From Gemmatirosa kalamazoonensis (GTDB lineage: Bacteria; Gemmatimonadota; Gemmatimonadetes; Gemmatimonadales; Gemmatimonadaceae): a stretch of DNA of 64,000 nt. The position numbers were made by a program, and so were the translations under genes. The notes under the pieces are model-generated. The model was not told where the DNA came from and did not search any database. It saw only the letters and a program-made list of their open reading frames with translations. Each line of letters begins with the position of its first letter. The first letter of the stretch is position 1. Shown here one piece after another: positions 1 through 40,237 of the stretch. The DNA lies in contig NZ_CP007130.1 in NCBI RefSeq assembly GCF_000522985.1, positions 620,001-684,000 of the forward strand, given 5' to 3'.

Positions 1-3000
1 CGAGCAGGTCGCGGCGGTACTCGACGGCGGCGCGCAGCCCATCGGGGCGCTCGGCCATCAGCAGCGACAGGTCGAACTTCGACGCGCCGACGTCGACGCC
101 CAGCGGCTCCATCGTCGCGACGCCGAGCCGCTCGGGCGCCTCGTGCACATCCTGCACGCTGAACATCACGCGGAACAGCGTGGCCTCTGCCGCCGGCGCG
201 CCCGCGCGCAGCTCGCGCACCAGGCGCTCATACGGCAGCGCCGCGTGCTCGAGCGCGCGCAGCGCGGCGTCTCGCGTGCGCGCGAGCAGCTCGGCGAATG
301 TCGGGTCGTCGTCGAAGCGCGCACGGAGCGCCAGCGCGTTCACGAGGTGCCCGACGAGCGGCTCCGTCTCCCGACGCGCGCGGCCCGACACCGGCGCGCC
401 GACCACGAGGTCGTCCTGCGCGCTGACGCGGAACAGCAGCGACTGGAACGCCGTGAGCAGCACCGCGAACGGCGTCGCGCCGTAGCGCGCGGCGAGCGCG
501 CGCGCCGCGTCGCGCGTCACCGCGGGAAGCGTGACCGCGTACCGGGCGCCGGGCCCGCCCGCCGACGCCGAGCGCGGGTGGTCGAACGGCAGGTCGATCA
601 CGGCGGGCGCACCGCGCAACGCCTCGCGCCAGAACGCGAGCGCCGGTGCGGCGCGCTCGTCGTCCACGCGGGCGCGCTCCCACGCCGCCACGTCCGCGAT
701 GTGCACGTCGAGCGGCGGCAGCTCGTGCCCGCGCCCTTCGTAGTACGCGGCGAGGTCGCGCAGCAGCGGGACGATCGAGCCGCCGTCGAAGACCGCGTGG
801 TGCGCGACGAACAGCAGCACGGCGTCGTCCGCGGCGCGGCGCACGAGGCCCACGCGGAACACCGGGCCTGCGGCGAGGTCGAACGGCCGCGCCGCGATCT
901 CGCGCAGCGCGTCGGCGGCCGCGGCGTCGTCGGCCGCGTCGACGAGCTCGAGACCGACCGGGCGGGACGGGTCGACGACCTGGCGCGGCCCGCCGCTCGT
1001 CTCGACGAACGTCGTGCGCAGCGCCTCGTGGCGGGCAACGAGCGCGCCCAACGCGGCCTCGAGTCGCGCCACGTCGAGCGGCCCGCGCACGCGCCGTGCG
1101 AGCGGGACGTTGTACGCCGCGGTGCCGGGCGCCATCTGCTCGTGCAGCCAGAGCAGCTCCTGCGCGAATGAGAGCGGTGCCGGCCCCTGATCCGCGCGCC
1201 GCGGGATGCGAGCCTCGGCGCCGGCCGTACCGCCCTCCGCCAGCCGCCGCACCACGAGCGCGGCGAGATCGGCCACCGTCCGCGCCTCGAACAGCGCGCC
1301 GATCGTGAGCCGCACCGGCACCACATCGGCGAGCCGCGCGATCACGCGCATGGCGAGCAGCGAGTGCCCGCCCAGCGCGAAGAAGTCGTCGTCCACGCCC
1401 ACGCGCTCGACGCCCAGCGCGCCGGCCCACGCGTCGGCGATCTGCGCCTCGAGCGGCGAGCGCGGCGCGGTGTACGGCCGAGCCGCGGCGGCGACCGCCT
1501 CGGCCGACGGCGCCGGAAGCGCACGGCGGTCCACCTTGCCGTTCGGCGTCAGCGGCAGCGCGCCGAGCACCATCACGGCGTTAGGCACCATGTACTCGGG
1601 CAGCGCCGCGCGCAGCCGCTCGCGCGCCGCGCCGAGCACCGCGTCCGCCGCGGCGGCATCGTCGAGCACCACGTAGCCCACGAGCTGCGCGTCGCCGCTC
1701 TCCGCGCGCCGCGCCGCGACCGCCGCCTGCGCCACGCCCGCGGTGCGCGCGAGCACGCTCTCGATCTCACCGAGCTCGATGCGATAGCCGCGCACCTTCA
1801 CCTGATCGTCGAGGCGGCCGAGGTACTCCAGCCGGCCGTCGACGTGGCGGCGCACGAGATCGCCGGTGCGATACATCCTCGGTGCCTCGGCGCTCCACGC
1901 TCCACGCTCCACGCTCGCTTCCACGTCCGTCGGACCGAGCGTGGAGCGTGGAGCGTGGAGCGTGGCAGGGGCGAACGGATCCGGGACGAATCGCTCGGCC
2001 GTGAGATCTGGCCGACCGTGATAGCCGTGCGCGAGCCCCGCGCCGCCGATCCACAGCTCGCCCGGCACGCCGAGCGGCGCCGGCTCGCCGGTCGGCTCCA
2101 GCACGTACAGCGTGGTGTTCGCGAGCGGCTCGCCTAACGATATCGGGCCCGGCGTCGCGACGTGCGCGCGCGTCGACCAGATCGTCGTCTCCGTCGGGCC
2201 ATACACGTTCCACAGCGCGGCGCCGCGCGGCACGAGTGACTCGGCCAGCCCCGGCGGCCACGCCTCGCCGCCGCACAGCATCGTGAGCGTCGGCGTGCCG
2301 CTCCAGCCGGTCTCCAGGAGCAGGCGCCACGTCGCGGGCGTCGCCTGCAGCATCACACCGCGCGCGCGCGCCGCGGTGCGCTCGACGAGCGCGCGCAGCG
2401 CCGCGCCATCGACCGCGGTCGCGCGCGACGCGAGCACGACCTCCGCGCCGGTCACGAGCGGCAGCCACAGCTCCAGCCCCGCGATGTCGAAGCTGATCGT
2501 CGTCACCGCGACGAGCGCGTCGCCGGCCGCGAGCCCCGGGCGCTCGGCCATGCTGGCGAGGAAGTTCGCCAGCGCGCGGTGCGGGATCATGACGCCCTTC
2601 GGCCGCCCCGTGGAGCCGGAGGTGTACAGCACGTACGCGAGCGACTCCGCGTCGACGTCGCACGGCGCGAGCGCGTCGATCGGGTCGCCGCTCGCCCACG
2701 TCACGCTCTCGATCCGCTCGATGGGCGCCTCCACGGCCGGCAGCCGCGGCGCCGACTCGGCGTCGGTGAGCACCGCGCGCACGCCGGCGTCGCCGAGCAC
2801 GTGCGCGATGCGCTCGGCCGGGTACGACGCGTCGACGGGCACGTAGGCCGCGCCGGCGCGCAGCACGCCGAGCAGCGCCGGGACGAGCGACGCGCTCCGC
2901 TCGACGCACACGCCGACGCGGTCGCCGGGCCGCACGCCTAACGATTCGAGCCGCCGCGCGACGAGCGCCGAGCGGCGCGCGAGCTCGGCGTACGTCAGCG

Positions 3001-6000
3001 TCTCGTCCTCGGCGCGGACGGCGACGGCGGCGGGCGACGCGGCGGCCACGGCGAGCACGCGCGCCGGCACCGTCCACGCGGGGAGCGGGCGCGCCGTGTC
3101 GTTCCACCGCTGCAGAACCGTCAGGCGCTCCGCCGCGTCGAGCAGCGGCAGCCGGCTCACGGCCACGTTCGCGTCGCGCGACGCGGCCTCGAGCAGCGTC
3201 GCATAGTGCGCGAGCAGCCGGTCGATCGTCGCCGCGTCGAACAGGTCGGTGTTGTACTCCGCCACGGTGACGAAGCCGCCGTCGGGAGCGGAGCGCACGA
3301 CGAGCGTGAGCTCGAACTTCGCCGTCTCCTTCGCCACGCGCGCCGGCGCGACGTCGAGGCCGGGGATCCGCGGCGGCCCGCCGAGACCGTCGAGGAGCTG
3401 GAACGCGACCTGGAAGATCGGGCTGCGGCTGCGGTCGCGCGTCGGCTGCACGCGCTCGACGACCTGCTCGAACGGCACGTCCTGGTGCGCGAGCGCCTCG
3501 GCGGCCGCGTCGCGCACCTGCGCGAGCAGCGCGGCGAACGGCGCGCCCGCATCCACCGCGACGCGCACGGCGAGCGTGTTCATGAACAGCCCGACGATCG
3601 GCTCCAGCTCCGTGCGCCGACGCCCCGACGTGATCGAACCGATCGCGAAGTCCGCCTGTCCGGTGTACCGGTGCAGCACCGCGGCGAACGCGGCGAGGCA
3701 CGTCGCGTACGGGGTCGCGCCGCGCGCGCGGGCGAGCGCGCGCACGCCCTCGGCCACCGCGGCGGGGACGTGCCGCTCGCGCTTCGCGCCGGCGACGGTC
3801 TGCACGGCGGGACGCGGCCGGTCCGTCGGCAGCTCCAGCGGCGCGACGCCCGTTAGGCGCGCGCCCCAGTAGTCGAGCTGACGCGCCGCGGCGGGCGACT
3901 GCAGCGCGCGGCGCTGCCACACCGCGTAGTCGGCGTACTGCAGCCCGAGCGGCGCGAGCGCGTCGCCCGCGTACGCGCGCCCGATCTCGTCGAGCAGCAC
4001 GCCCATCGACCAGCCGTCGGCGACGATGTGGTGCAGCGTGAGCAGCAGCACGTGCTCGTCGTCGGCCGTGCGCAGCAGCGCGGCGCGCACGAGCGGCCCG
4101 GCGGCGAGATCGAACGGCGCGTTCGCGTGGGCCGAGCTCTCGGCCGCCACGCGCGCGTCGCGCGCCTCGGGCGCGAGCGCGCGCAGGTCCGTCACCGGCA
4201 GCGGCACGCGCAGCGTGGGGAGGATCACCTGCGCCGGCGCGTCGTCGCGCAGCGCGAACACGGTGCGCAGCGCCTCGTGCCGCGCGACCACGGCATTCAG
4301 CGCGTGCTCGAGCTTCGCGGCGTCGAGCGCGCCCGTCAGGCGCAGCGCGACCGGCAGCGTGTACGCCGCCGACTCGGCGTCGATCTGGTCGAGGATCCAG
4401 AACCGCTGCTGCTGGAACGACGTCGGCAGCACCGGCGTGTCGCCGTCGCATGCGACCGGCACGAGCGGATGCGCGTCGTCGTCCGCCGCCACGCCCGACA
4501 GCTCGTCGACGAGCGCCGCCACGCGCGCCACGGTCGCGCCGCGCAGCAGCTCGTCGAGCGGCACGTGTACGCCCAGCTCGTGGCGGATGCGGCCGAGGAC
4601 GCGCATCGCGAGCAGCGAGTGGCCGCCGAGGTCGAGGAAGCCGTCGTCCACGCTCACCGCGGGCAGCGAGAACGCGTCGGCCCACATCTCCGCGATGCGG
4701 CGCTCGGTCGGCGTGCGCGGCGCGACGATCTCTCGCGCCGCACGCGCCTCCGGCAACAGCGCGACGAGCGCCTTGCGGTCCGCCTTGCCGCTCGGCGTGA
4801 GTGGCAGCGCGTCCAGCGTCACGAACTGCGACGGCACCATGTGCGGCGGCAGCGACGCGCCGAGCGTGTCGCGCAGCGCTTCCGCGTCAGGCACCACGGC
4901 GTCCGGTTCGGCGACGACACACGCGACGAGCTGCGGGCCGGTGACGGCGTCGTCGCGCACGACGACCACCGCCTGCGCGATGCCGGGCACGCCGGTGAGC
5001 GCGCTCTCGATCTCCCCGAGCTCGATGCGGAAGCCGCGAATCTTGACCTGGAAGTCGAGCCGCCCGAGGTACTCCACCGTGCCGTCGGGCCGCCACCGCG
5101 CGAGGTCGCCGGTGCGATAGAGACGGGACCCGGGACTCGGGACTCGGGACTCGGGCGCTTCTCCCCCCCGAGTCCCGCGTCCCGAGTCCCGCGTCCCGAA
5201 CGGGTCCGGAACGAACCGCTCGGCGGTCAGCTCGGGGCGGCCATGATAGCCCATCCCCACCTGCACGCCGCCGAGGTACAGCTCCCCGGCGACGCCTAAC
5301 GGTACGAGCTGGCGGTGCGCGTCGAGGACGTGCAGCGTCGTGTTCGCGACCGGCCGGCCGATCGGCACGACCGCGGGCGGCTCGGGGCTCGGGGGGCACG
5401 GCCAGTACGTCACGTCCACCGCGCACTCCGTCGGCCCGTACAGGTTGTGCAGCCGGCTCCCCGGCAGCGCCCGATAGAACCCCGCCACCAGGTCCGGCGC
5501 CAGCGCCTCCCCGCTCGCCAGCACGTCCCGCAGCGAGACGCACCCCGCCGCCGTCGGCTCCGCGAGGAACGCGCGCAGCATCGAGGGCACGAAGTGGCAC
5601 ACCGTCACCCCGTGCCGCTGGATCGTCGCCGCCAGGTACGCCGCGTCGCGATGCCCCCCGGGCCGCGCCAGCACGAGCTTCGCCCCGCTCATCAGCGGCC
5701 AGAAGAACTCCCACACGCTCACGTCGAAGCTGAACGGCGTCTTCTGCAGCACCACGTCGCCCGCGCCCAACGCGTACTCCGCCTGCATCCACCGCAGCCG
5801 GTTCACGATCCCGCGGTGCGCATTGAGCGCCCCCTTCGGCCGCCCCGTCGACCCCGACGTGTAGATCATGTACGCCACATCGTCCGCCGCCGGCCGCGGC
5901 AGCGGCACAACGTCATCCGCGTGATCCGCCACATCCGCGCGATCCGCGTCCTCCGCCGCGCCGTCGAGCAGCACGAGGGTCGCCTGGTGCGCCGGCAGCG

Positions 6001-7822
6001 TCCCCGCCAGCGCCCGCGTCGTCAGCAGCACCGGCGCCCCGGAGTCGGCGAGCATGTACGCCACGCGCTCCGCCGGGTACTCCGGATCGACGGGCACGTA
6101 CGCCCCCCCCGCCTTCCCCACCGCCACGAGCGCGACCACCAGCTCGACCGAGCGCTCCGCGCACACCGCGACGAGCGCCCCCGCACCCACGCCTAACGCG
6201 CGAAGCCGCCGCGCCAGCGCTGCCGCGCGCGCCTCGAGCGCCGCGTACGTCAGCGAGGCACGCTCGTCCACCACCGCGACCGCGTCCGGCGTCCGCGCCG
6301 CCTGCTCGGCCAGCAGCGACACCAGCGTCGCGTCCTCGCTGCCCAACGATCGCGCCGTGTCGTTCCACTCGGCGAGCTGCGCGCGCTCCACGGCGGTGAG
6401 CAGCGGCAGCCGCGACACCGGCCGCTCGGGCTCCGCCACCGCACCGGCGAGCAGCACGCCGAAGTGCTCCGCCATGCGCGCGATCGTCGGCGCGTCGAAC
6501 AGGTCGGTGCGGTACTCGATCATGCCGTCGTAGCCGCGCGTCGTCTCGCGCAGGCCGAGCACGAGCTCGAACTTCGCGCTGCCGAAGTCCGTCGGCACCA
6601 CCGACGCCTCGACGCCGTGCAGCGCCGGTGCGGCGATCTCGCCCGTCGCGAGCTGGAAGCTCACCTGCGCGAGCGCGCCCGCGCCGCCCGTCCCGAGCTC
6701 CGCGGCCACGAGGTCGAGCGGCACGTCCTGGTGCTCGAACGCCTGCATGCTCGTGTCGCGCACGCGCGCGACGAGCGCCGCGAACGTCGGGTCGTCGTGC
6801 AGCGCCGTCCGCAGCACCACGAGGTTCGGGAAGTAGCCGACCACGCGCTGCAGCTCCGGCAGCGCGCGCGCGGACACCGGCGTCCCCACGGCGACGTCGT
6901 CCTGCCCGGTATACCGCGCGAGCAGGGCCTGGAACGCGGCGAGCAGCGTCATGAACGGCGTCGCGCCGTGCGCCCGCGACAGCGCACGCACCCGCTCGGC
7001 CAGCTCCGCCGGAAGCGTGAAGCGGTGGCGCGCGCCGGCGAACGACGGCGTCGCGGCGCGCGGCCGGTCGGTCGGCAGCTCCAGCCGCGTCAGGCCGCGC
7101 AGCCGCTCGCGCCAGAAGTCGAGCTGCGGCGCGAGCGCGCCCGCGGCGTGCTGCGCGCGCTGCCACACCGCGTAGTCGGCGTACTGCACGTCGAGCGGCG
7201 GCAGCGACTCGCCCGCATAGAGCGCCGCGAGGTCGCCGAACACGACGTCGCGCGACCCCTCGTCGCACACGAGGTGATGCGACACGAGCGCGAGCACGTG
7301 GTCGTCGGCGCCGAGTCGCACGAGCAGCGCGCGGAGCTGCGGATCGCGCGCGAGGTCGAACGGGCGGCGCACGAACGTGCCTAACAGATTCTCGAGCGCT
7401 CCGTCGTCGCCGGCCGTGAGGTCGGCGCACGCCAGCGCGACGGGTGCGGGCGCGTCGATCACCTGCTCCGGCCCCGCCGCGCCGCGCACGAAGCGCGTGC
7501 GCAGCGCCTCGTGCCGCGCCACGAGCCCGTCGAGCGCCCGCCGCAGCGCGGCGACGTCGAGCGGGCCGCGCAGGCGCAGCACGCGGGGGACGTGGTACGC
7601 CACGAGCTCGGGGAGCGCCTCGTGGAGGCTCCACAGGAACTCCTGGCCCAACGACAGCGGCGCCCGCGCGGCGTCGGGCCGGCGCGGGATGGTCGTCGCA
7701 CGCGCCTGCCGCGCCGCCTGGAGCTGCCGCTCCACGAGCGCGCGCCGCTCCGGCGACAGCTGCGCGAGCCGCGCGGCCAGCGCCGGTGTCATCGACGTGC
7801 CGCCGCCGTCGGGCGTCGTCAT
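1..7822 (-). CDS. NRPS-D: nonribosomal peptide synthetase C-A(Ser)-PCP-C-A(Gly)-PCP-C..., 3' end outside window
   Basis: This is the last synthetase gene of the operon in the window; its frame stays open to the left edge (at least 2,607 residues). It starts at ATG 7822, overlapping the TGA of NRPS-C as ATGA. Domains in order: C1 (motif HHLVCDEGS near residue 184), A1 (A4 core FDVSVWE, YGPTECAVD, YRTGDL), PCP1 (LGGHSL near 1068), C2 (HHIVADGWS near 1266), A2 (FDIAGLELW, YGPTETTIW), PCP2 (LGGHSL near 2156), C3 (HHAVFDGGS near 2342). Aligned by hand to the GrsA pocket, A1 reads DVWHLSLVDK, a serine code, and A2 reads DILQLGVIWK, close to the glycine code DILQLGLIWK. No E domain is seen here. Both A domains carry an in-frame hairpin repeat just before YRTGD. 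C1 has DE instead of DG in its His motif. Module order is well supported; substrates are inferred. Confidence 0.93.
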   Translation of the reverse strand, partial: MTTPDGGGTSMTPALAARLAQLSPERRALVERQLQAARQARATTIPRRPDAARAPLSLGQEFLWSLHEALPELVAYHVPRVLRLRGPLDVAALRRALDGLVARHEALRTRFVRGAAGPEQVIDAPAPVALACADLTAGDDGALENLLGTFVRRPFDLARDPQLRALLVRLGADDHVLALVSHHLVCDEGSRDVVFGDLAALYAGESLPPLDVQYADYAVWQRAQHAAGALAPQLDFWRERLRGLTRLELPTDRPRAATPSFAGARHRFTLPAELAERVRALSRAHGATPFMTLLAAFQALLARYTGQDDVAVGTPVSARALPELQRVVGYFPNLVVLRTALHDDPTFAALVARVRDTSMQAFEHQDVPLDLVAAELGTGGAGALAQVSFQLATGEIAAPALHGVEASVVPTDFGSAKFELVLGLRETTRGYDGMIEYRTDLFDAPTIARMAEHFGVLLAGAVAEPERPVSRLPLLTAVERAQLAEWNDTARSLGSEDATLVSLLAEQAARTPDAVAVVDERASLTYAALEARAAALARRLRALGVGAGALVAVCAERSVELVVALVAVGKAGGAYVPVDPEYPAERVAYMLADSGAPVLLTTRALAGTLPAHQATLVLLDGAAEDADRADVADHADDVVPLPRPAADDVAYMIYTSGSTGRPKGALNAHRGIVNRLRWMQAEYALGAGDVVLQKTPFSFDVSVWEFFWPLMSGAKLVLARPGGHRDAAYLAATIQRHGVTVCHFVPSMLRAFLAEPTAAGCVSLRDVLASGEALAPDLVAGFYRALPGSRLHNLYGPTECAVDVTYWPCPPSPEPPAVVPIGRPVANTTLHVLDAHRQLVPLGVAGELYLGGVQVGMGYHGRPELTAERFVPDPFGTRDSGRGTRGGEAPESRVPSPGSRLYRTGDLARWRPDGTVEYLGRLDFQVKIRGFRIELGEIESALTGVPGIAQAVVVVRDDAVTGPQLVACVVAEPDAVVPDAEALRDTLGASLPPHMVPSQFVTLDALPLTPSGKADRKALVALLPEARAAREIVAPRTPTERRIAEMWADAFSLPAVSVDDGFLDLGGHSLLAMRVLGRIRHELGVHVPLDELLRGATVARVAALVDELSGVAADDDAHPLVPVACDGDTPVLPTSFQQQRFWILDQIDAESAAYTLPVALRLTGALDAAKLEHALNAVVARHEALRTVFALRDDAPAQVILPTLRVPLPVTDLRALAPEARDARVAAESSAHANAPFDLAAGPLVRAALLRTADDEHVLLLTLHHIVADGWSMGVLLDEIGRAYAGDALAPLGLQYADYAVWQRRALQSPAAARQLDYWGARLTGVAPLELPTDRPRPAVQTVAGAKRERHVPAAVAEGVRALARARGATPYATCLAAFAAVLHRYTGQADFAIGSITSGRRRTELEPIVGLFMNTLAVRVAVDAGAPFAALLAQVRDAAAEALAHQDVPFEQVVERVQPTRDRSRSPIFQVAFQLLDGLGGPPRIPGLDVAPARVAKETAKFELTLVVRSAPDGGFVTVAEYNTDLFDAATIDRLLAHYATLLEAASRDANVAVSRLPLLDAAERLTVLQRWNDTARPLPAWTVPARVLAVAAASPAAVAVRAEDETLTYAELARRSALVARRLESLGVRPGDRVGVCVERSASLVPALLGVLRAGAAYVPVDASYPAERIAHVLGDAGVRAVLTDAESAPRLPAVEAPIERIESVTWASGDPIDALAPCDVDAESLAYVLYTSGSTGRPKGVMIPHRALANFLASMAERPGLAAGDALVAVTTISFDIAGLELWLPLVTGAEVVLASRATAVDGAALRALVERTAARARGVMLQATPATWRLLLETGWSGTPTLTMLCGGEAWPPGLAESLVPRGAALWNVYGPTETTIWSTRAHVATPGPISLGEPLANTTLYVLEPTGEPAPLGVPGELWIGGAGLAHGYHGRPDLTAERFVPDPFAPATLHAPRSTLGPTDVEASVERGAWSAEAPRMYRTGDLVRRHVDGRLEYLGRLDDQVKVRGYRIELGEIESVLARTAGVAQAAVAARRAESGDAQLVGYVVLDDAAAADAVLGAARERLRAALPEYMVPNAVMVLGALPLTPNGKVDRRALPAPSAEAVAAAARPYTAPRSPLEAQIADAWAGALGVERVGVDDDFFALGGHSLLAMRVIARLADVVPVRLTIGALFEARTVADLAALVVRRLAEGGTAGAEARIPRRADQGPAPLSFAQELLWLHEQMAPGTAAYNVPLARRVRGPLDVARLEAALGALVARHEALRTTFVETSGGPRQVVDPSRPVGLELVDAADDAAAADALREIAARPFDLAAGPVFRVGLVRRAADDAVLLFVAHHAVFDGGSIVPLLRDLAAYYEGRGHELPPLDVHIADVAAWERARVDDERAAPALAFWREALRGAPAVIDLPFDHPRSASAGGPGARYAVTLPAVTRDAARALAARYGATPFAVLLTAFQSLLFRVSAQDDLVVGAPVSGRARRETEPLVGHLVNALALRARFDDDPTFAELLARTRDAALRALEHAALPYERLVRELRAGAPAAEATLFRVMFSVQDVHEAPERLGVATMEPLGVDVGASKFDLSLLMAERPDGLRAAVEYRRDLL
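1891..1962. repeat. Tandem-armed hairpin, CTCCACG class, in frame in NRPS-D A2
   Basis: Two perfect 27-bp arms (1891-1917 and 1936-1962) surround an 18-base loop. Each arm is about three and a half copies of CTCCACG or its complement. It lies in frame in the second A domain of NRPS-D, between the FVPDPF and YRTGD motifs, and adds roughly 25 codons without a stop. Confidence 0.9.
5124..5198. repeat. Tandem-armed hairpin, GGGACTC class, in frame in NRPS-D A1
   Basis: The left arm (5124-5155) is repeated GGGACTC; the right arm (5167-5198) is the complementary GAGTCCC series with two GCGTCCC variants. It is translated in frame between FVPDPF and YRTGDL of the A domain, giving a Ser/Arg/Gly/Pro-rich loop. 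The same class occurs at 18149-18223 and 28460-28580. Confidence 0.88.
5914..5957. repeat. One-armed ATCCGCG tandem repeat in NRPS-D A1
   Basis: Imperfect copies of GATCCGCG(C/T) lie in frame and encode an Asp/Ala-rich DADRADVADHAD stretch. The unit is the same as in the full hairpin at 49278-49367, but no complementary arm follows. The paralogous A domain has it too (18938-18980). It may be a remnant of a hairpin that lost one arm. Confidence 0.6.
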
Positions 7823-10800
7823 TCCTTCGCCTCGCCGGCGCCCGTGGTGAGGCCGCGCACCTGCTCGTCGGAGAGCCCCTCGATCTCCGCCAGCGCGCGC
7901 GCCAGCTCCGCCTCCTCGCGGGCGCGCAGCTCCGTGTCGACGATCGCCGCGATCTGCGTCACGGTCGGCGTCTCGAACAGCGCGCGCAGCGCGAGCCGCA
8001 CGCCGAGCTCCTTGTTGATGCGTCCGAGCACGCGGATGGCGAGCAGCGAGTGGCCGCCGAGGTCGAGGAAGCTCTCGGTGACGCCGATACGCTCCTTCTT
8101 GAGGACGTCCTGCCAGATGCGCGCGACCGTCCCCTCGGTCGGCGTGCGCGGGGCGACGTAGGTGTCGGCCGCCGCGGCGCTCGCGTCGGGGGCCGGGAGC
8201 GCGCGCTTGTCCACCTTGCCGTTCGGCGTCAGCGGCAGCGCGTCGAGCAGCACCACCGCGCTCGGCACCATGTACTCCGGCAGCTGCGCCGCCAGCCACT
8301 CGACCAGCTTCTCGCGCGTCGGCCGGTCCGAGTGCGACACCGCGTAGCCCGCCTGCTTCGGCACCGCGTATGCCACGAGCGCCTCGTCCCGCAGCACGAC
8401 GACCGCCTGCGCCACGCCGGGGTTCGCGCGCAGCACCTGCTCGATCTCGCCGAGCTCCACGCGGAAGCCACGCACCTTCACCTGATCATCGACGCGGCCG
8501 AGGAACTCGATGCTTCCATCCGGGAGCCGCTTCACGCGGTCACCCGTGCGGTACACGCGCTCGCCATGGAACGCGACGAACCGCTCGGCCGTCAGATCGT
8601 CGCGCTTCAGGTAGCCGCGTGCGACACCCGCGCCGCCGATCAGCAGCTCGCCGGGAATCCCCACTGGCTGCTCGTTGCCGTGCGCGTCGACCACGTACGC
8701 ATGGGTATTCGCGAGCGGCTTGCCTAACGGCACCGTCTGCCCGCTCAACGAGGCCGTGGTGACCTCGTGGGTGAGGACGCCGACGGTGGTCTCGGTCGGA
8801 CCATAGTGGTTCAGCACCCGGCACGTCCCCGCATTGAGGAACGTCCGCGCGACCTCGGGCCGCAGCGCCTCGCCGCCCACCACGAGCCACGTCGTCGGCA
8901 GCGCCGTCCCGAGCGCGACGACGTGGTTCGGCGTCGCCTTGATCACGTCGAGCGGGTGCGCCGCGACATACTCGGCGAACCGCGCCGGGTCCGTCGTCAC
9001 GTCCTTCGAGAGCACGTGCAGCGTGCCACCCGCGATGAGCGAGGGCAGGAGCGCCGTGTTCCCGAGGTCGGCCGCGAGCGTGCTGACCATGCCGAAGTGC
9101 AGCCCGTCGAGCGCGCCGAGCACGCGCGAGATCGTGCGCGCATAGTGCACCGCGTTCGCGTGTGTGACGGCGACGCCCTTCGGCGTGCCCGTCGACCCGG
9201 AGGTGTAGAGCACGTACACCAGATCGTCCGGCGCGGCCACAGAGTCGACGTTCGCATCCGACGATGCGCCCGACGCGTCGACGGTCACCGCCTGCACGGA
9301 CGCGGGCAGCTTCCCGGCCCCGGCCGCATCCGTCACGACGACTTTGGCCCCGCTCTCCGTGAGCTGCGTCGCGAGCCGCCCCGCCGGCGCCTCGACGGAG
9401 AGCGGCATGTACGCGCCGCCCGCCTTCAGGATGCCTAACAGCCCGACGACTGCCTCGGCCGAGCGATCGAGCAGCAGGCCGACCGGCGTGTTGGACGACA
9501 CGCCTAACGACCGGAGCTGCCGCGCGAGCGCGTTCGCCCGCGCGTTCAGCTCCGCATACGACAGCGTCGCGTCCGCGCCGACGACCGCCGCGCGCTCCGG
9601 CACCCGCGCGGCCTGCGCCTCGAACGACTCGACGAGCGTGGCGGGAGCGCCGAGCGCCGCGGCCGTGTCGTTCCACGCCGCGAGCTGCGCCCGCTCGCCG
9701 GCGGTCAGCAGCGCGATCTTCGAGACGCGCACCTCGGCGTCCGCCACCGCCGCCTCGAGCACGCTCCGCACGTGCCCGAGGAACCGCTCCGCGTACCCCG
9801 GCATGAACAGGTCCGTGCGGAAGCCGAGCGCGAGCCGCAGCCCCTGAGGCACCTCGGCTACCAGCAGCGTGAGGTCGAACTTCGTCTGGCCGATGTCGAG
9901 GCTCAGGAACTCCAGCGACGCGGCGCCGAGCCGCAGCTCGTCGGGCAGCGTGTCCTCCATCCTCAGCACGCAGGAGAACAGCGGCGCGTGGCTCGGCGTC
10001 CCCGGCGCGTCCGCCGCGCGCAGCTCGAGTACCAGCTCCTCGAACGGCACCGCCTCGTGCTCGTACGCGTCCACCGCGTTCTCCGAGATGCGCTCCAGCA
10101 GCTCGGCGAACGTCGGATCGTCGGCGAAGCTGGTCCGCATCGCGAGCGTGTTCGCGAAGTAGCCGAGCAGCCCCTCCACCTCCGGGCGCGTGCGGCCGGC
10201 GATCGGCGAGCCGGTGATGATGTCCGCCTGTCCGCTGTACCGGTGCAGCACCGTCTGATACGCGGCGAGCAGCACCATGTACGGCGTCGCGCCGTACGAC
10301 TGCCCGAGCTCGCGCAGCCGCGCCACGAGATCGTTCGGCAGCACGCTGTCGCGGCGCGAGCCCGCGAAGCCCTGCGCCGCCGGACGCGGGAAGTCGGTCG
10401 GCAGCTCGAGCGTCGGCAGCGGCTGCGCGAGACGGCCGCGCCAGTAGTCGAGATGCTCGCGCAGCTCCGGCCCCTCCGCCGCCGCGCGCTGCCAGATCGC
10501 GAAGTCGGCGTACTGGATCGGCAGCGGCGCGAGCGCAGGGGCGCGCCCGGCCGAAAGCGCGTCGTACGCGGCGCTCAGCTCGCGGAACAGGATTCCCTTC
10601 GACCACCCGTCGGAGACGATGTGGTGCGACACGAGCACGAGGATGTGATCGTCGGCCGCCAGACGGATCAGTCGCGCGCGCAGCAGCAGGTCCGCGCCGA
10701 GGTCGAAGCACGTCGTCGCCTCCGCCATCACGAGCCGCTCCGCCTCCGCCTCGCGCGCGTCGGCCGGCAGCGACGTGAGATCCACGACCGGCAGCGCGAA

Positions 10801-11112: not shown

Positions 11113-11132
11113 CGCCCGTCGCTCGTCCACCG

Positions 11133-14100
11133 TCACGCCGTCCCCGCCCGCGCGCGGTCCACCGCGCCCGCGAGCTGCTCCAGCGTCGACGCCTCGAACA
11201 GCGTGCGCAGCGGCAGCCGCACGCCGAACGACTTGCTGATCTTGCCCAGCGCGCGGATGGCGAGCAGCGAGTGCCCGCCGAGCGCGAGGAAGTTGTCGCC
11301 CAGCCCCACGCGCTCCTTCTTCAGCACCTCCGCCCAGATCGCGGCGAGCTGCCGCTCCGTGTCGGTGCGCGGCTCTGCGAATTGCTCGCCCTGCTGCTCC
11401 GCCGCATCGGGGGCGGGGAGCGCGCGCTTGTCGACCTTGCCGTTCGGCGTCAGCGGCAGCGCGTCGAGCAGCACCACCGCGCTCGGCACCATGTATTCCG
11501 GCAGCTGCGCCGCCAGCCACTCGACCAGCTTCTCGCGCGTCGGCCGGTCGCTGTGGCTCACCGCGTAGCCCGCCTGCTTCGGCACCGCGTACGCCACCAG
11601 TTCTTCCTCATTGAGGACGACGACCGCCTGCGCGACGCCCGGATTCGCGCGCAGCACCTGCTCGATCTCGCCCAGCTCCACGCGGAACCCGCGGACCTTC
11701 ACCTGATCATCGACGCGGCCGAGGAACTCGATCGACCCATCGGGGAGGCGGCGCACGCGGTCCCCGGTGCGATAGACACGCTCGCCATGGAACGCGACGA
11801 ACCGCTCGGCCGTCAGATCGTCGCGCTTGAGGTACCCGCGTGCGACGCCCGCGCCCCCGATCAGCAGCTCGCCGGGGATCCCCACCGGCTGCTCGTTGCC
11901 GAACGTGTCGACCACATACGCGTGCGTGTTCGCGAGCGGCTTGCCTAACGGCACCGTCTGCCCGCTCAACGAGGCCGTGGTGACCTCGTGGGTGAGGACG
12001 CCGACGGTGGTCTCGGTCGGACCATAGTGGTTCAGCACCCGGCACGTCCCCGCGTTCAGGAACGTCCGCGCGACCTCCGGCCGCAGCGCCTCGCCGCCCA
12101 CCACGAGCCACGTCGTCGGCAGCGCCGTCCCGAGCGCGACGACGTGGTTCGGCGTCGCCTTGATCACGTCGAGCGGGTGCGCCGCGAAATACTCGGCGAA
12201 CCGCGCCGGGTCCGTCGTCACGTCCTTCGAGAGCACGTGCAGCGTGCCGCCCGCGAGCAGCGCGGGCAGCAGCGCGGTGTTGCCGAGGTCCGCCGCGAGC
12301 GTGCTCACCATGCCGAAGTGCAGCCCGTCGAGCGCGCCGAGCACGCGCGAGATCGCCCGCGCGTAGTGCACCGCGTTCGCGTGTGTGACGGCGACGCCCT
12401 TCGGCGTGCCCGTCGAGCCGGAGGTGTAGAGCACGTATGCCAGATCGTCCGGCGCGGCCACAGAGTCGACGTTCGCATCCGACGATGCGCCCGACGCGTC
12501 GAAACTCACCGCCTGCACGGACGCGGGCAGCTTCCCTGCCCCGACCGCGTCGGTGACGACGACCTTCGCCCCACTCTCCGTGAGCTGGGTCGCGAGCCGC
12601 GCCGCCGGGGCGTCCACCGAGAGGGGCATGTACGCGCCGCCTGCCTTCAGGATGCCCAACAGTCCGACGATCGCCTCGGCCGAGCGGTCGAGCAGCAGGC
12701 CGACCGGCGCGTTAGGCACCACGCCGAGCGACCGGAGCTGCCGCGCGAGCGCGTTCGCCCGCGCGTTCAGCTCCGCATACGACAGCGCCGCGTCCGCGCC
12801 GACGACCGCCGTGCGCTCCGGCACCCGCGCCGCCTGCGCCTCGAACAGCGCCACCAGCGTCGCCGGCGCGCCCTCGTCCGCCGCGGTCTCGTTCCACGCC
12901 GCCAGCTTCGCGCGCTCCGCCGCCGTCAGCAGCGGCAGCGCCGACACGCGACGCGTGGGCTCCGCGACCGCTGCCTCCAGCACGGTCGTCAGATGGCCGA
13001 GGAACCGCTCCGCGTAGCCGCCCGTGAACAGGTCCGTCCGGTACCACAGCGCGAGCTCCAGCCCGTCGGCCCGCTCCGTCGCGAGGATCGTGAGGTCGAA
13101 CTTCGTCCCCGCCGCGTCCAGCTCCACCGGGCTCGTCGCCGCGTCGCCGAGCGTGAGCTCCGCGCCGAGCGTGTCCTGCATCGTCAGCACCACGCGGAAC
13201 AGCGGCGCGTGCGACTGCGCGGCCCCACGGCTCCGCTGTAGCTCCAGCACGAGCGACTCGAGTGGCGTGTCCTGGTGCTCGAACGCGCCGAGCACCGTCT
13301 CCGACGCGCGCGCGAGGAGCGCCGCGAAACTCGGATCGCTCTCGAAGCGCACGCGCATCGGAAGCGCCTGCGAGAAGTAGCCGACGACGTCCTCCAGCTC
13401 GCGCCGCGTGCGGTTCGCGACGGCCGACCCGATCACGATGTCGTCCTGCCCCGAGTAGCGGCGCAGCACGGTCGCGTACGCGGCGAGCAGCACCGTGTAC
13501 GTCGTCGTCGACGTCCGCTGGGCGAGCGCGCGGATCGCGGCGTGCAGCGCGGGCGGCAGCACCACCGTGCGCCGCGCGCCGGCGAAGCTCTGCACGGCGC
13601 CGCGCGCGAAGTCGGTCGGCAGCTCCAGCACCGGCAGGTCGGCCAGCCGCGCGCGCCAGTAGCCCAATGCGGTCTCCAGCGCCTCGCCGCGCAGCGTCGC
13701 GCGCTGCCACGCCGCGAAGTCGCCGTACTGCAGTGCCGGCGGCGGCAGCTCCGTGCCCGCGTACAGCGCGCCGAGGTCGCGGAAGATCTGCCCGTACGAC
13801 CACGCGTCGGACACGATGTGGTGCGTGAGCAGCAGCAGCACGTGGTCGTCGTCGGCCAGCCGCGCGAGCGCCGCGCGGAACCCCGGCTCGCGCGCGAGGT
13901 CGAACGGACGGTTCGCCTCGGCGCGCAGCGCGGCGAGCGCCGCCGCCTCGCGCTCCGCGGCGGGCACCGCGCGCACGTCGTGCACGACGAGCGCGAACGG
14001 CGCCGCCGGTCGCACCACCTGCACCGCACCGTCCCCCTCCGCGGCGAACACCGTGCGCAGCGACTCGTGGCGCGCCACCAGGCCGCCTAACGCGCGCTCC

Positions 14101-14360
14101 AGCGCCCCGACGTCCAGCGGGCCGCGCACGCGGCGCGCGAGCGGCGAGTTGTACGCCGTCAGGCCGGGCGTCGCGCGGTCGAGGAGCCACAGCACCTCCT
14201 GCGCGTACGTCGCCGGCACCGGCGCCGCCGGGTCGCGCGGCGCGATCGCGCCGCCGCCCTCGTCGGGCGCGTCGAGCCCCTCGGCCGCCAGCAGCTCCTC
14301 GATCAGCCGCTGGCGCTCCCGCTCGAGGTCGAGATCCGCGCGCGTCGTCTGACTCTCCAT
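11133..14360 (-). CDS. NRPS-B: single-module synthetase C-A(Asp)-PCP
   Basis: A single elongation module of 1,075 residues starting with a charged N-terminal helix (MESQTTRADLDLERE), a possible docking region. The C domain has HHIVSDAWS near residue 180, with Ala where the family usually has Gly. The A domain (about 503-977) has SGSTGTPKG, NHYGPTETT and YRTGDR. The PCP has FLALGGHSLLAI near 1033. The pocket is DLTKVGHVGK, an aspartate-like code identical to NRPS-C. It starts 19 bases after the stop of NRPS-A, so the genes form one transcript. Asn is a less likely alternative substrate (usual code DLTKLGEVGK). Two consecutive Asp modules beside a SyrP-like hydroxylase suggest at least one beta-hydroxy-Asp in the product; this is inference. 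Confidence 0.94.
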   Translation of the reverse strand: MESQTTRADLDLERERQRLIEELLAAEGLDAPDEGGGAIAPRDPAAPVPATYAQEVLWLLDRATPGLTAYNSPLARRVRGPLDVGALERALGGLVARHESLRTVFAAEGDGAVQVVRPAAPFALVVHDVRAVPAAEREAAALAALRAEANRPFDLAREPGFRAALARLADDDHVLLLLTHHIVSDAWSYGQIFRDLGALYAGTELPPPALQYGDFAAWQRATLRGEALETALGYWRARLADLPVLELPTDFARGAVQSFAGARRTVVLPPALHAAIRALAQRTSTTTYTVLLAAYATVLRRYSGQDDIVIGSAVANRTRRELEDVVGYFSQALPMRVRFESDPSFAALLARASETVLGAFEHQDTPLESLVLELQRSRGAAQSHAPLFRVVLTMQDTLGAELTLGDAATSPVELDAAGTKFDLTILATERADGLELALWYRTDLFTGGYAERFLGHLTTVLEAAVAEPTRRVSALPLLTAAERAKLAAWNETAADEGAPATLVALFEAQAARVPERTAVVGADAALSYAELNARANALARQLRSLGVVPNAPVGLLLDRSAEAIVGLLGILKAGGAYMPLSVDAPAARLATQLTESGAKVVVTDAVGAGKLPASVQAVSFDASGASSDANVDSVAAPDDLAYVLYTSGSTGTPKGVAVTHANAVHYARAISRVLGALDGLHFGMVSTLAADLGNTALLPALLAGGTLHVLSKDVTTDPARFAEYFAAHPLDVIKATPNHVVALGTALPTTWLVVGGEALRPEVARTFLNAGTCRVLNHYGPTETTVGVLTHEVTTASLSGQTVPLGKPLANTHAYVVDTFGNEQPVGIPGELLIGGAGVARGYLKRDDLTAERFVAFHGERVYRTGDRVRRLPDGSIEFLGRVDDQVKVRGFRVELGEIEQVLRANPGVAQAVVVLNEEELVAYAVPKQAGYAVSHSDRPTREKLVEWLAAQLPEYMVPSAVVLLDALPLTPNGKVDKRALPAPDAAEQQGEQFAEPRTDTERQLAAIWAEVLKKERVGLGDNFLALGGHSLLAIRALGKISKSFGVRLPLRTLFEASTLEQLAGAVDRARAGTA
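11415..12845. repeat. A-domain segment near-identical to 8195-9635
   Basis: The NRPS-B partner of the duplicated Asp-type A domain. Sites where one copy has GCCTAAC and the other GCCCAAC or an unrelated codon pair (for example near 12655 versus 9433, and 12709 versus 9502) show that this heptamer is gained or lost between recent copies. Confidence 0.85.
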
Positions 14361-14379
14361 TCGTCCGTCCCGTCGCTGC

Positions 14380-17300
14380 TCAGGTGCTCGCGACGCGGGA
14401 TGCTCCCGCGCGCCGTAGTTCGTCGGGCGTCATCGCCAGCACGCGGCGCACGACCTGCGCGACACGCTCCAGCTGCCCGGGCTTGCGCTCCCGCGCGGTG
14501 AGCGCGGCCGCGAACGCCGCCACCGTCGGGTGCTGGAACAGCAGCCGCACCGGCGCCTCGACCTGCAGCGTCGAGCGCACGCGCGACACGATCTGCGTGG
14601 CCACCAGCGAGTAGCCGCCGAGCGCGAAGAAGTCGTCCTCGGCCCCCACGCGCTCCACGCCCAACACCTCGCCCCACAGCGCCGCCACGACGGCCTCCGT
14701 CGCGGTGCGCGGCTCCACGTACGCGCGCGCGCCGCCGACTCCGTGCTCGTGCGCGGCCGCCGCCGGCGCCGGCAGCGCGGCGCGCAGCGCGTCCACCGTG
14801 GCGCCGGGCGCGGACACCATCGCCAGCAGCGCGTGCCGCAGCCCCTCCGCCATCTCGCGCGCCGACGCGTCGTCGAAGTAGCGCGCGTCGTACGTCACCC
14901 GCAGGTCGAGCGCGTCGCTCCCCGCCACGATCACCGACAGCGGGTACGCCGTGCGCGTCGGCACGTGCACGAGCTCCGTGCGCACCGCGTCGCCGAGCCA
15001 CGAGCGCGTCAGCTCCTCCGCGTCGTCGTGCTGGAACACGAGCAGCGTCTCGAACAGGCGCGCGCGCCACGGCACGCCGCTCCACTCCTGCACGCGCTCC
15101 AGCGGCGTGTGCGCGAAGCTCTGCATCTCGGCGAGCCCCTCGTGCACCGTGGCGAGCCACGCGCCTAACGATTCGCCCGGCGCGACGCGTGCCCGCAGCG
15201 GCAGGTTGTTGATCGTCAGCCCCACGAGCCGCTCCACGTCCGGCACGCCCGCGTCGCGCCCGGCCACCGTCACGCCGAACGACACGTCGTCGTGGCCGCT
15301 GCGACGCGCGAGCCACAGCGCCCACGCCGCCGCCACGAGCGTGTTCGCCGCCACGCGGCTCGCGCGCGCCAGCGCGTGCACCTCACGCGTCTCCTCGGCC
15401 GTGAGCGTCGCGCTCACCTCGGCCGGCTCGGACGCGTCGACGTCGCCGCGCAACGGCAGCAGCGGCAGCCGCGGCGGCGGGGCGAACCCGTCGAAGTGCC
15501 GCGCCCAGAAGCGCCGTGCCTCGTCGAGCGGACGCTCCTGCTGCCACGCCACGAAGTCCGCGTAGCGCGCCGCGCGATCGAGCGCCGGCCGCTCGCCGCG
15601 CACGAGTGCCGGGTACGCGCGCGAGATCTCCAGCAGCACGAGCGGCCACGACCAGCGGTCGAGCAGCAGGTGATGGTTGCTCCACACCAGCTCGTACTCG
15701 TCGTCCGCGAGTCGCACGAGCATCAGCCGCATGAGCGGCGCCCGGTCCAGCGCGAATCCCGCCGCGCGATCGGCCTCCAGCAGCTCGTGCAGCCGTCGCG
15801 TCTGCTCCTGCTCCGTCAGGCCGCGCAGGTCGTGCTCGGCCCACGGCAGCTCGGCGCGGCGCCGGACCACCTGCACCGGCTCCGACACGCCGTCCACCGC
15901 GAACGCGGTGCGGAAGATCGCGTGCCGCGCCGTGACGAGATCCCACGCCGCGTGCAGCGCCGTCGCGTCGAGCGGCCCGCGCAGCCGGTAGCGCCACTGC
16001 TCGAACCCCGGATCGCCGGCCGAGTGCGCGTAGCCGAGGAACAGCCGCTGCATCGGCACGAGCGGGTAGACGTCCTCCACGTCGCGCGCGCCGGCTGCGC
16101 CGTTCGTCAGGCGATCCACCGCCGCCTGGTCCAGCCGCGCGAGCGGGAAGTCCGACGGCGTGTAGCCGCCGACGCCGGGCGCCGTGCAGTGCGCGACGAG
16201 CGCGCGCAGCGCGGCGACGTACGCGTCGGCCATGCCGGCGATCGTCTCGCGGCGGTGCGTGCGCTCGCTGTAGCTCCAGCGGATCTCGAGCCGCCCGTCG
16301 ATCACGAGCGCGTTGATCTCCAGCAGATGGCGGCGCACCGTGCGCGGCCCGTACCACGACCCCGTGCTCTCCGGCGCGTGCGCGAACAGCGTCGACCCGG
16401 CGACCACCTGGTCGAACTGCCCCATGTAGTTGAACACCACGTCCGGCGTCGTCTGCGCGCGCAGCGTCTCCGCGCCGTCGCCGAGGTAGCGCAGCACGCC
16501 GTAGCCCACGCCGCGGCCGGGCACCGCGCGCAGTCGCTCCTTCGTCTCGCGCAGCCGCGCGCCGAGGTCCGCCGCGCCCAACGGCAGCCGCACCGGGAAG
16601 ATGGTCGTGAACCAGCCGAGCGTGCGCGACAGGTCCGCCCCGTCCACCAGCGCCTCGCGGCCGTGCCCCTCCAGGTTGACGACGATGTCGCCGCCGCTCG
16701 GCCCGACCCAGCCGCCGAACGACTCGGCGAGCGCGGCGAGCAGCGCATCGTTGATCTGCGTGTTGTACGCGGCGGGCACCGCCTGCAGCAGCGCGCGCGT
16801 CTCGTCCTCGCCGAGCCGCACCACCACCGTGTCGGTGTACGCCGCGAAGTCCTCGCCCGACGCGGCGAGATCGCGCGGCAGCCGCACCGACGCCGGCGAG
16901 CCGACCGCCTCCCAGTACGCCAGCTCGTTCCGAAGCGTGTCGCGCACCGACGCGTCGTTCAGCCGCGTCGCCCACGCGCCGAACGGCGTCGTGCGTGCCG
17001 GCAGCGCGATCGGCGACCCGGCCGCGCGCTGCGTGTACGCCGTCTCGAGATCCTCGCGCAGCACGCGCCACGACACGCCGTCGATCGCCAGGTGGTGCAC
17101 CGCGACGAGCAGTCGCGCCGGTCGGTCCGCTCCGAGGCGGAACAGCGCCGCGCGCAGCAGCGGGCCGCGCGCGAGGTCGAGCGTCCCCTGCACGCGCACG
17201 CTCGCCTCGGTGATCGCCGCGTGCTGGGACGTCTCGGGCAGGTGCCCCAGCTCCACCACCTCGATGTGCGCCGCGGGCGCGTCCGCCGCGCACCGCGCGC

Positions 17301-20300
17301 GCCACCCGTTCGGCGTCCGCTCGAAGCGCAGGCGCAGGCTGTCGTGGTGCCGCGTCACCGCGTCCACCGCGTCGGCGAGGACGGCGTCATCGAGCTCCGC
17401 CGGCGCGGTGAACAGGAAGGCCTGGTTCCAGTGGTGGAGCTGCTCGCGCTGCCCCTCGAAGAACCAGTGCTGCACCGGCGTGAGCGGGACCTCGCCCACG
17501 ATCTCGGCGTGCGCCACCGCGTTCGCCGTCGTCGTCTGCGCGACGTGCGCCAGCGACGCGACGGTCGGATGACGGAGCACCTGCGTCAGCGAGAGCTTGA
17601 GCCCTGCGAGCGCCGCGCGTGCGACGATCTGCACGCTCAGCAGCGAGTCGCCGCCGAGCTCGAAGAAGTTGTCGTCGACGCCGACGCGCTCCACGCGCAG
17701 CACCTGCGCCCAGATCTCCGCCAGCGTACGCTCGGCGTCGGTGCGCGGCGCGACGTAGCGGCCGGACAGCGCGGCGCGCCCCACGCCCTCCGCGTCGGGA
17801 AGCGCGCGCCGATCGACCTTGCCGTTGCTCGACAGCGGCAGCGCGGGCAGCCACGCGAACACCGCGGGCACCATGTACTCCGGCAGCGTCGCGAGCAGGT
17901 GCTCTCGCAGCGCGCCCGCGGACAGCGGCTCGCGGGCCGCGACGAGGAACGCCACGAGGCGCTGCTCGTTGCCGGCGCCGCGCGCGACGACCACCGCGTC
18001 GCGTACGCCCGCATGCGCGAGCAGCGTCGCCTCGATCTCGCCGAGCTCGATGCGGAAGCCGCGAATCTTGACCTGGAAGTCGAGCCGCCCGAGGTACTCC
18101 ACCGTGCCGTCGGGCCGCCACCGCGCGAGGTCGCCGGTGCGATAGAGCCGGGACTCGGGACTCGGGACTCGGGACTCGGGCGCTTCTCCCCCCCGCGTCC
18201 CGCGTCCCGAGTCCCGCGTCCCGAACGGGTCCGGAACGAAGCGCTCGGCGGTGAGATCAGGCCGATTGTGATAGCCCATCCCCACCTGCACGCCGCCGAG
18301 GTACAGCTCCCCGGCGACGCCGATCGGCACCGGCCGCCGCTCGGCGTCGAGCACGTAGACGCGCGTGTTCGCGACGGGCCGGCCGATCGGCACGACCGCG
18401 GGCGGCTCGGGGCTCGGGGGGCACGGCCAGTACGTCACGTCCACCGCGCACTCCGTCGGCCCGTACAGGTTGTGCAGCCGGCTCCCCGGCAGCGCCCGAT
18501 AGAACCCCGCCACCAGGTCCGGCCCCAGCGCCTCCCCGCTCGCCATCACGTCCCGCAGCGAGGCACACCCCGCCGCCGTCGGCTCCGCGAGGAACGCGCG
18601 CAGCATCGAGGGCACGAAGTGGCACACCGTCACCCCGTGCCGCTGGATCGTCGCCGCCAGGTACGCCGCGTCGCGATGCCCCCCGGGCCGCGCCAGCACG
18701 AGCTTCGCCCCGCTCATCAGCGGCCAGAAGAACTCCCACACGCTCACGTCGAAGCTGAACGGCGTCTTCTGCAGCACCACGTCGCCCGCGCCCAACGCGT
18801 ACTCCGCCTGCATCCACCGCAGCCGGTTCACGATCCCGCGCTGCGCATTGAGCGCCCCCTTCGGCCGCCCCGTCGACCCCGACGTGTAGATCATGTACGC
18901 CACATCGTCCGCCGCCGGCCGCGGCAGCGGCACAACGTCATCCGCGTGATCCGCCACATCCGCGCGATCCGCGTCCTCCGCCGCGCCGTCGAGCAGCACG
19001 AGGGTCGCCTGGTGCGCCGGCAGCGTCCGCGCGAGGGCCGCCGTCGTCAGCAGCACCGGCGCCCCGGAGTCGGCGAGCATGTACGCCACGCGCTCCGCCG
19101 GATACTCCGGATCGACGGGCACGTACGCCCCCCCCGCCTTCCCCACCGCCACGAGCGCGACCACCAGCTCGACCGAGCGCTCCGCGCACACCGCGACGAG
19201 CGCCCCCGCACCCACGCCTAACGCGCGAAGCCGCCGCGCCAGCGCCGCCGCGCGCGCATCGAGCTGCGCGTACGTCAGCGAGGCACGCTCGTCCACCACC
19301 GCGACCGCGTCCGGCGTCCGCGCCGCCTGCTCGGCCAGCAGCGACACCAGCGTCGCGTCCTCGCTGCCTAACGACCGCGCCGTGTCGTTCCACTCCTCGA
19401 CCACCAGCCGCCGCTCCGATTCCGGCAGCGGCGAGAGGTCGCCGAGCAGCGCGCGCGGGTTCGCCGCCATCGCTTCGAGCAGCGTCGCGAGGTGATCGAG
19501 CAGCCGCGCCGCCGTCGCGTCGTCCACCACGTCGCGCGCGTTCTCGATCTCCAGTCGCAGCTCCGTGCCGCCGTACAGCAGCCCGGTGAGCGCGAAGTTC
19601 GTCCCGCCGAACAGCTCGAAGTCGCGCTCCGCCATCCCCCCGCCGAGCGTTCGCATCGTCGGGCCGAGCGGCAGGTTCTCGAACACTACCTGCGTGTCGA
19701 ACAGCGGCGTGTCCGTGGGCACCTCGCTCCACCGGTGCACGAGTCGCAGCGGTGTGTGCTCCACCGCGAACATCGACCGCCACGTCTCGCGCAGCTCCGC
19801 GAGCCAGTCCACGAGCGACACGTCGGGACGCACGCGCGCCCGCACGGGGAGCGTGTTGATGAACAGCCCCACGATGTCGTCCGCGCCGTCGATCGTCCCC
19901 TTCCGGCACGCGCGCGTCGCGCCGAACACGACGTCCGGCTCGCCGGCGTGATACGCGAGCATGAGCGCCCACGCGCCCTGCACGACGGTGTTCATCGTCA
20001 GGCCGTGCTCGCGCGCCATCCGCTCCAGCGCCGCCGTCGGCGCCGCGTCGAGCATGCGCTGATGCAGCCCGCGGCCGCCCGCCTGCTCGTTAGGCGCGCG
20101 GAATCCCGCCGGGATCGGCGTCGGCCGCCGCAGTCCCGCCATCCGCTCGCGCCAGTACGGCTCCGCCGCGTCGAAGTCCTTCGCGCCGTACCACGCTACG
20201 AAGTCGCGGTACGCGCGCCGCTCCGGCAGCCGCGCTGCCGCCGGCGTCGCCGCCTCGTACACCGCGAACAGCTCGCGCAGCACGATCGCGAACGACCGGC

Positions 20301-33666: not shown

Positions 33667-33720
33667 GGGGACTCCTGTTGGGGGTCCGCCACGTTACGGC
33701 CCGGGAACGCGGAATGGCTA

Positions 33721-33798
33721 GGGCAGGAGGGCAGGAGGGCAGGAGGGCAGGAGAGTCGTCAGCTCTCCTGCCCTCTTGCCCTCCTGCCCTCCTGCCCT
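33721..33798. repeat. Tandem-armed hairpin, GGCAGGA class, after susD
   Basis: The left arm holds four GGCAGGAG units and the right arm four complementary units with one CTTGCCC variant; the loop is about 7 bases. It begins seven bases after the susD stop, so it may act as a transcription terminator or attenuator between susD and the protease gene. It lies in the 138-base spacer; nothing else is seen there. Confidence 0.9.
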
Positions 33799-33804
33799 CG
33801 CTTC

Positions 33805-40133: not shown

Positions 40134-40140
40134 GCGTGGC

Positions 40141-40229
40141 GTTCACGGCTCCACGTACGAGTGTTCATGGGACTGAAGAAGGACTGTCCTTCTTCAGTCC
40201 TGCGAGAACACGTACGTGGAGCCGTGAAC
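40141..40229. repeat. Tandem-armed hairpin, CACGTACG/ACTGAAG class, between convergent genes
   Basis: Outer arms 40141-40166 and 40206-40229 pair (GTTCACGGCTCCACGTACG and complement), and an inner stem of GGACTGAAGAAGGAC pairs with its complement around a 2-base tip. It fills the gap between two convergent genes and could be a bidirectional terminator. Shares ends and inner unit with 46844-46978 and 63310-63450, but with only one inner unit per arm. Confidence 0.9.
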
Positions 40230-40237
40230 GGCGGACA

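Follow-up and report, generated by a model that had tools for sequence, protein, structure and literature searches.

Rickettsia is the best-known source of palindromic repeats that lie in frame within core genes. The Rickettsia palindromic elements (RPEs) are dispersed palindromes found in frame in conserved protein genes and also between genes (Ogata et al., reviewed in PMC2229807), and the RPE-carrying protein Gmk is translated and active (PMC2229807). Here we describe two classes of palindrome, GGGACTC and CTCCACG, in the free-living soil bacterium Gemmatirosa kalamazoonensis KBS708 (PMC3974934; genome G+C 72.6%), where they occupy dozens of genes, including single-copy essential ones. In the window, a 64,000-nucleotide stretch (bases 620001-684000 of the 1,040,503-bp contig C4), they lie in the A6-A7 loop of adenylation (A) domains in nonribosomal peptide synthetase (NRPS) genes. 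We consider it highly probable that they are two families of dispersing, stop-free palindromic repeats, kept in genes only in tolerant loops and with the reading frame preserved.

These elements resemble RPEs in their working mode, as in-frame palindromes in conserved open reading frames, and are not members of that family, judged by description rather than by sequence comparison. RPEs measure 105-146 bp, occur in Rickettsia and have no described heptamer arms, whereas those of G. kalamazoonensis are about 60-95 nt long, heptamer-armed, six-frame-invariant and found repeatedly in one loop of one domain family. In Geobacter metallireducens, an element of four tandem GGGACCG heptamers occurs 49 times, both in genes (at times more than one to a gene) and between them (PMC2700814). 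That unit is one base off GGGACTC; the available part of that report describes the elements as putative regulatory RNA and mentions neither in-frame residence nor inverted arms (PMC2700814). The GGGNATC G-quadruplex heptamers of Xanthomonas and Nostoc are dispersed, prefer four units and form ∼70 inverted pairs per Xanthomonas genome (PMC4692102). GGGACTC is likewise G-rich, dispersed and inclined to four units (exactly four perfect ones in 45 of 86 arms), and its unit departs from GGGNATC at one position; GGGNATC is over-represented in non-coding DNA (PMC4692102), whereas GGGACTC has almost half of its sampled copies in genes.

The heptanucleotide stem-loops in P6b of the Nostoc trnL intron, of classes I and II, have replaced each other repeatedly and independently (PMC4476775). 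Two unrelated heptamer classes at one tolerated stem-loop follow the same logic as the A6-A7 loop, although in intron RNA rather than in a protein loop. Interrupted A domains also carry inserted sequence, in their case whole catalytic domains at a8-a9 or a2-a3 (PMC11355689), whereas here the insert is a stretch of ∼20-27 residues at a6-a7 with low AlphaFold2 (AF2) confidence. Miniature inverted-repeat transposable elements have terminal inverted repeats with target-site duplication; the arms here are inverted, and no duplication was noticed in the flanks, although no systematic search for one was made. Repetitive extragenic palindromic (REP) sequences mobilized by REP-associated tyrosine transposases (RAYTs) are mainly extragenic; here 19 of 43 sampled GGGACTC copies are in frame in genes, and the genome lacks a Y1-type transposase. 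A literature search found no description of these elements in Gemmatirosa. What is new is that two classes lie in frame in a free-living phylum and converge on a single protein loop.

Hairpins in the A6-A7 loop and the number of insertions

The window features are as follows.

1891-1965, minus strand: CTCCACG-class hairpin in NRPS-D A2, in frame; arms of 35 nt, 91% complementary
5124-5199, minus strand: GGGACTC-class hairpin in NRPS-D A1, in frame; arms of 32 nt, 94% complementary
18149-18224, minus strand: GGGACTC-class hairpin in NRPS-A, in frame; arms of 32 nt, 91% complementary
1-7822, minus strand: NRPS-D gene, running past the window edge (C4:618013-627822); two A domains with a hairpin
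7819-11136, minus strand: NRPS-B, condensation-adenylation-thiolation (C-A-T); 8-residue loop VAFHGERV, without hairpin
11133-14360, minus strand: NRPS-C, C-A-T; 8-residue loop VAFHGERV, without hairpin
14380-20745, minus strand: NRPS-A gene; one A domain with a hairpin
4611-6370, minus strand: A-domain block of NRPS-D A1 with the hairpin inside; partner of 17639-19395
17639-19395, minus strand: partner block in NRPS-A, pairing with 4611-6370

All three hairpins continue the reading frame on the coding (minus) strand, between FVPDPF and YRTGD. NRPS-D A2 reads ..DPFAPA-TLHAPRSTLGPTDVEASVERGAWS-AEAPRMYRTGD.. (a net gain of ∼25 residues over a 13-residue loop), and NRPS-D A1 reads DPF-GTRDSGRGTRGGEAPESRVPSPGSR-LYRTGD (∼18 residues). 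The host A domains match PF00501/PF13193 (Pfam), with the AMP-binding fold and the A core motifs intact around the insert. Folded as RNA, the hairpins at 1891-1965, 5124-5199 and 18149-18224 gave -71.8, -74.3 and -68.3 kcal/mol, with z scores against shuffled sequence of -10.1, -6.4 and -5.3, respectively.

Both classes, though unrelated in sequence, have arms of tandem heptamers (GGGACTC/GAGTCCC or CTCCACG/CGTGGAG, usually 2-5 units) around a loop of ∼10-26 nt. Since 7 is not divisible by 3 and the arms are palindromic, the encoded peptide does not depend on the frame: in all six, the GGGACTC class reads (GTRDSGL)n..(ESRVPSP)n and the CTCCACG class (LHAPRST)n..(RGAWSVE)n, with no stop. Palindromic, stop-free and built on a 7-nt unit, the elements are therefore suited to coding sequence, where only their total length modulo 3 counts; gain or loss of a unit (7 nt = 1 modulo 3) could repair the frame after insertion.

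At the search depth used, the genome holds 12 NRPS-type A-domain loci, and in 6 of these the A6-A7 loop contains a heptamer-armed hairpin. Four are of the GGGACTC class (NRPS-D A1, NRPS-A, C4:608740 and C4:596397) and two of the CTCCACG class (NRPS-D A2 and the chromosomal C2:1840518), so that C4:608740, C4:596397 and C2:1840518 lie outside the window. The hairpin-free loci include four near-identical Asp-type A domains with the 8-residue loop, NRPS-B and NRPS-C among them, both of which carry ERFVAFHGERVYRTGD where hairpins sit in the six carriers. The hairpin-free domain at C4:618631 matched at normal loop length, and at the twelfth locus, C2:2539039, the match is weak and the protein shorter. 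The flanks of the four Asp-type domains are 85-95% identical, and all four are still hairpin-free.

The sequence-only reading had described three in-frame hairpins of two unrelated classes at exactly the same place, with only ERFVAFHGERVYRTGD there in NRPS-B and NRPS-C. The three are present and in frame, NRPS-B and NRPS-C are as described, and the classes are indeed unrelated in sequence, with a common architecture nevertheless; the carriers number six rather than three, and the place is the same only to within a few codons. All four GGGACTC copies begin at one nucleotide, right after GAYCCGTTC (..DPF), and the CTCCACG copies begin a few codons downstream of that start.

Independent insertion, which the same reading had proposed, was supported, with one of the three hairpins in the window turning out to be a duplicate. 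Because the NRPS-D A1 and NRPS-A hairpins lie inside a block shared at 90.5% identity over 1777 nt (alignment columns), we counted them as one event, later duplicated. The two CTCCACG hairpins have related loops, CTCGGTCCGACGGACGTGGAAGCGAG in one and, after reverse complementation, CTCGCTCCGATGGACGCGGAAGCGAG in the other (23 of 26 bases agree in a count by eye). These loops form one subfamily and face opposite ways with respect to the gene, so the hairpins represent two separate insertions. The loop of the C4:596397 hairpin, GGGTGCCGGAC, is identical to that of a hairpin in mutS at C2:1031798. Apart from the NRPS-D A1/NRPS-A pair, the flanks of the inserted A domains are 66-83% identical, and in the tree the inserted domains stand at separate places with uninserted ones in between (some supports are low). 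We therefore place the number of insertion events into the A6-A7 loop at a minimum of three, with four or five likely. The chance that one random NRPS-gene hairpin falls in these loops is ∼1.1%, and that three do ∼1e-6, a rough estimate that ignores tolerance.

The best surviving alternative, still an unlikely one, is a single ancestral insertion into an A domain that spread by duplication and recombination. This is true for NRPS-D A1 and NRPS-A. The common start of the four GGGACTC copies also speaks for it, as does the loop subfamily GGGAGAAGCG, to which the C4:608740, NRPS-D A1 and NRPS-A hairpins all belong: an exact genome search for GGGAGAAGCG outside A domains gave one match, at C2:1486811, which is not within a hairpin. 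As the sole explanation it is refuted by the inverted CTCCACG pair; the two unrelated unit classes, the divergent flanks, the interleaving on the tree and a C4:596397 loop in common with mutS and not with the other A domains all argue against it as well.

Dispersal through the genome

We scanned ∼0.9 Mb together with 4-kb regions around listed hairpins, so the totals below are sample counts; GGGACTC copies were taken from the chromosome's first 3 Mb, from spaced stretches and from the NRPS region, and genes were called in-house from codon usage. In frame inside genes were 19 of 43 GGGACTC copies and 8 of 35 CTCCACG copies. An octamer class, AGGAGGGC, had none of its 11 sampled copies inside genes, although it is stop-free in all frames (by gene calls, 21/43 GGGACTC versus 0/11 octamer copies in genes; Fisher p = 0.004). 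Most extragenic copies lay a few bases past a stop codon. No clear gene-disrupting copy was found among the 78 sampled heptamer elements, in an analysis that included no homology search for pseudogenes, and this supports the selection for frame that had been suggested from the window. Eight frame-break candidates from a flank test were rejected, being mostly at gene 3' ends or reading on in frame.

Host genes identified by Pfam or NCBIfam include those for IleRS, MutS, DnaA, PriA, ArgC, NAD synthase (NadE), an ATP-dependent DNA ligase and an ABC-F protein, and further those for an Lhr-type helicase, a homocysteine methyltransferase-MTHFR fusion (with the element between the domains) and a ParB-like protein. 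The last of these lies in the window:

28460-28580, plus strand: GGGACTC-class hairpin in a ParB_N-domain gene (28277-29494), in frame, in its N-terminal part

The 3' arm of this hairpin has a decayed extension. In dnaA (C2:1207601-1211600), an in-frame GGGACTC hairpin stands between the N-terminal and ATPase domains. In the stretch C2:1030001-1050000, mutS and an adjacent SPOR-domain gene have one in-frame GGGACTC hairpin each (stretch positions ∼1798-1866 and 3300-3376), and slippage of units in the mutS hairpin could produce a mutator state. An intergenic GGGACTC hairpin at C2:139849-140067 has 25 units in one arm, which suggests active repeat expansion.

IleRS contains one element of each class. 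Only a single ileS copy was found, other partial matches being weaker segments of paralogous synthetases. Neither element is present in the aligned IleRS relatives, among which the two sites are loops of varying length; the hairpins thus sit where a change of length was already allowed. The GGGACTC hairpin was present in none of 394 other Gemmatimonadota, and no near-identical replicon was found among plasmid records.

A role of the hairpins in the NRPS genes themselves, either as an mRNA fold at which ribosomes would pause ahead of A7 or as a homology patch for exchange of A domains, is a shade less probable than a single insertion. The hairpins are very stable, one site was hit in six domains, and recombination in NRPS genes is known (PMC8097286). 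Nevertheless, the same elements occur in unrelated genes and in intergenic DNA, near-identical Asp-type A domains do without them, and the ends of the NRPS-D A1/NRPS-A block do not coincide with the hairpin. The phenomenon is genome-wide, with a cause that is not peculiar to A domains.

Tolerance of the loop and origin of the elements

In AF2 models, mean pLDDT (predicted local distance difference test) was 90.7 for NRPS-D A1 and 89.7 for NRPS-D A2; the insert blocks scored 50-67 and 46-48, respectively, and neighboring blocks mostly >90. Foldseek with these models matched NRPS A domains, 5U89, 6P1J and 1AMU among others. The insert is therefore most probably a disordered segment protruding from an intact A domain, presumably at the surface. 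This profile and the naturally length-variable loops that hold the IleRS inserts bear out the earlier suggestion that the loop is a tolerated one.

The insert might instead be absent from the protein, through ribosome bypassing or mRNA excision, and hairpins in coding sequence do resemble bypass elements. We regard this as very improbable. None of the six A domains or the two IleRS sites has lost the reading frame, and such strict frame keeping, together with stop-free units, would be needless if the insert were skipped.

Of 69 A domains drawn from many phyla, a sample biased toward close relatives of the query, 57 have an A6-A7 loop of 13 residues (range in all 69, 11-19), and solved A-domain structures also have a short segment at this position. 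Among A domains of the same order (n = 21), the loop has 8-17 residues except for one of 25, and a loop of 26 occurs in another genome; the inserted loops of G. kalamazoonensis measure 29, 31, 31, 31, 38 and 38 residues. A query in which the loop held a 26-residue blank was run against 179 family genomes, and six of its top seven places went to the six domains of G. kalamazoonensis. That the loop is simply variable in length and the hairpins ordinary diverged sequence, which the sequence-only reading had named as its refutation, is itself refuted: despite the range of 8-17 residues and the single cases of 25 and 26 in relatives, 69 A domains of many phyla stay at 11-19 with a mode of 13, and the inserts are near-perfect heptamer hairpins with dozens of near-identical copies at unrelated loci.

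The 25-residue loop, from genome G076, was considered as a third hairpin class and not counted; pairing of CTGAAGAC with GTCTTCAG is partial, and a pattern search found no hairpins of this kind in G076. The 26-residue loop, from genome G101, shows no clear hairpin, and its A domain is sister to the hairpin-bearing domain at C4:608740.

The dispersal of palindromic repeats would then proceed as follows. Two dispersed families of short heptamer-armed palindromes have probably multiplied recently in G. kalamazoonensis. Copies in genes would persist only if the frame is kept and the loop or linker tolerates ∼20 extra, probably disordered residues. As a tolerant site with 12 copies per genome, the A6-A7 loop would have taken up elements of both classes on at least three to four occasions. 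Identical hairpin loops at unrelated loci argue for copying of whole elements and not just growth in place, so the elements have probably moved rather than grown locally; the retained copies may be selectively neutral.

Several observations weigh against this explanation. Stop-freedom alone is insufficient for residence in genes, given the octamer AGGAGGGC at 0 of 11. No match to a Y1_Tnp/RAYT transposase (PF01797) was found in the genome, with positive controls matching, and no target-site duplication was noticed in the flanks, for which no systematic search was made. For the C4:608740 and NRPS-D A1/NRPS-A insertions, transfer between A domains is possible. The GGGACTC copies seem not to be perfectly clean insertions and to have taken the place of some native linker, because the net gain of 16 to 18 residues (48-54 nt) is smaller than the hairpins (∼66-75 nt); the CTCCACG insertions add a net 75 nt, about the length of the element. 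Finally, the reading covers only ∼0.9 Mb and chosen loci.

A bolder version of the dispersal explanation is that these are species-specific, still-moving palindromes adapted to genes by six-frame-invariant units and by frame repair through unit change, which colonize protein loops, those in DnaA, MutS and IleRS among them. We put it forward tentatively, as possible rather than probable.

If the elements did disperse in this way, they would amount to a natural insertion screen, marking protein sites that tolerate ∼20 extra residues, with the A6-A7 loop as a candidate insertion site for NRPS engineering. They also bear on how repetitive DNA may turn into protein sequence, surviving where loops tolerate extra residues.

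Other hairpin classes in the window

The octamer AGGAGGGC forms a hairpin at 33717-33801, in an intergenic gap. An 11-mer class, GGACTGAAGAA, is present as hairpins or repeats at 63315-63445, 40140-40230 and 46921-46956 and has 77 pattern matches per strand in the genome; because its unit contains a stop codon, it is expected only in intergenic DNA. Hairpins with nonamer arms (GATCCGCGT, CGCAGAGGA and ACAGGATGA) lie at 49277-49368, 52864-52937, 54895-54981 and 61738-61829, near gene starts and ends.

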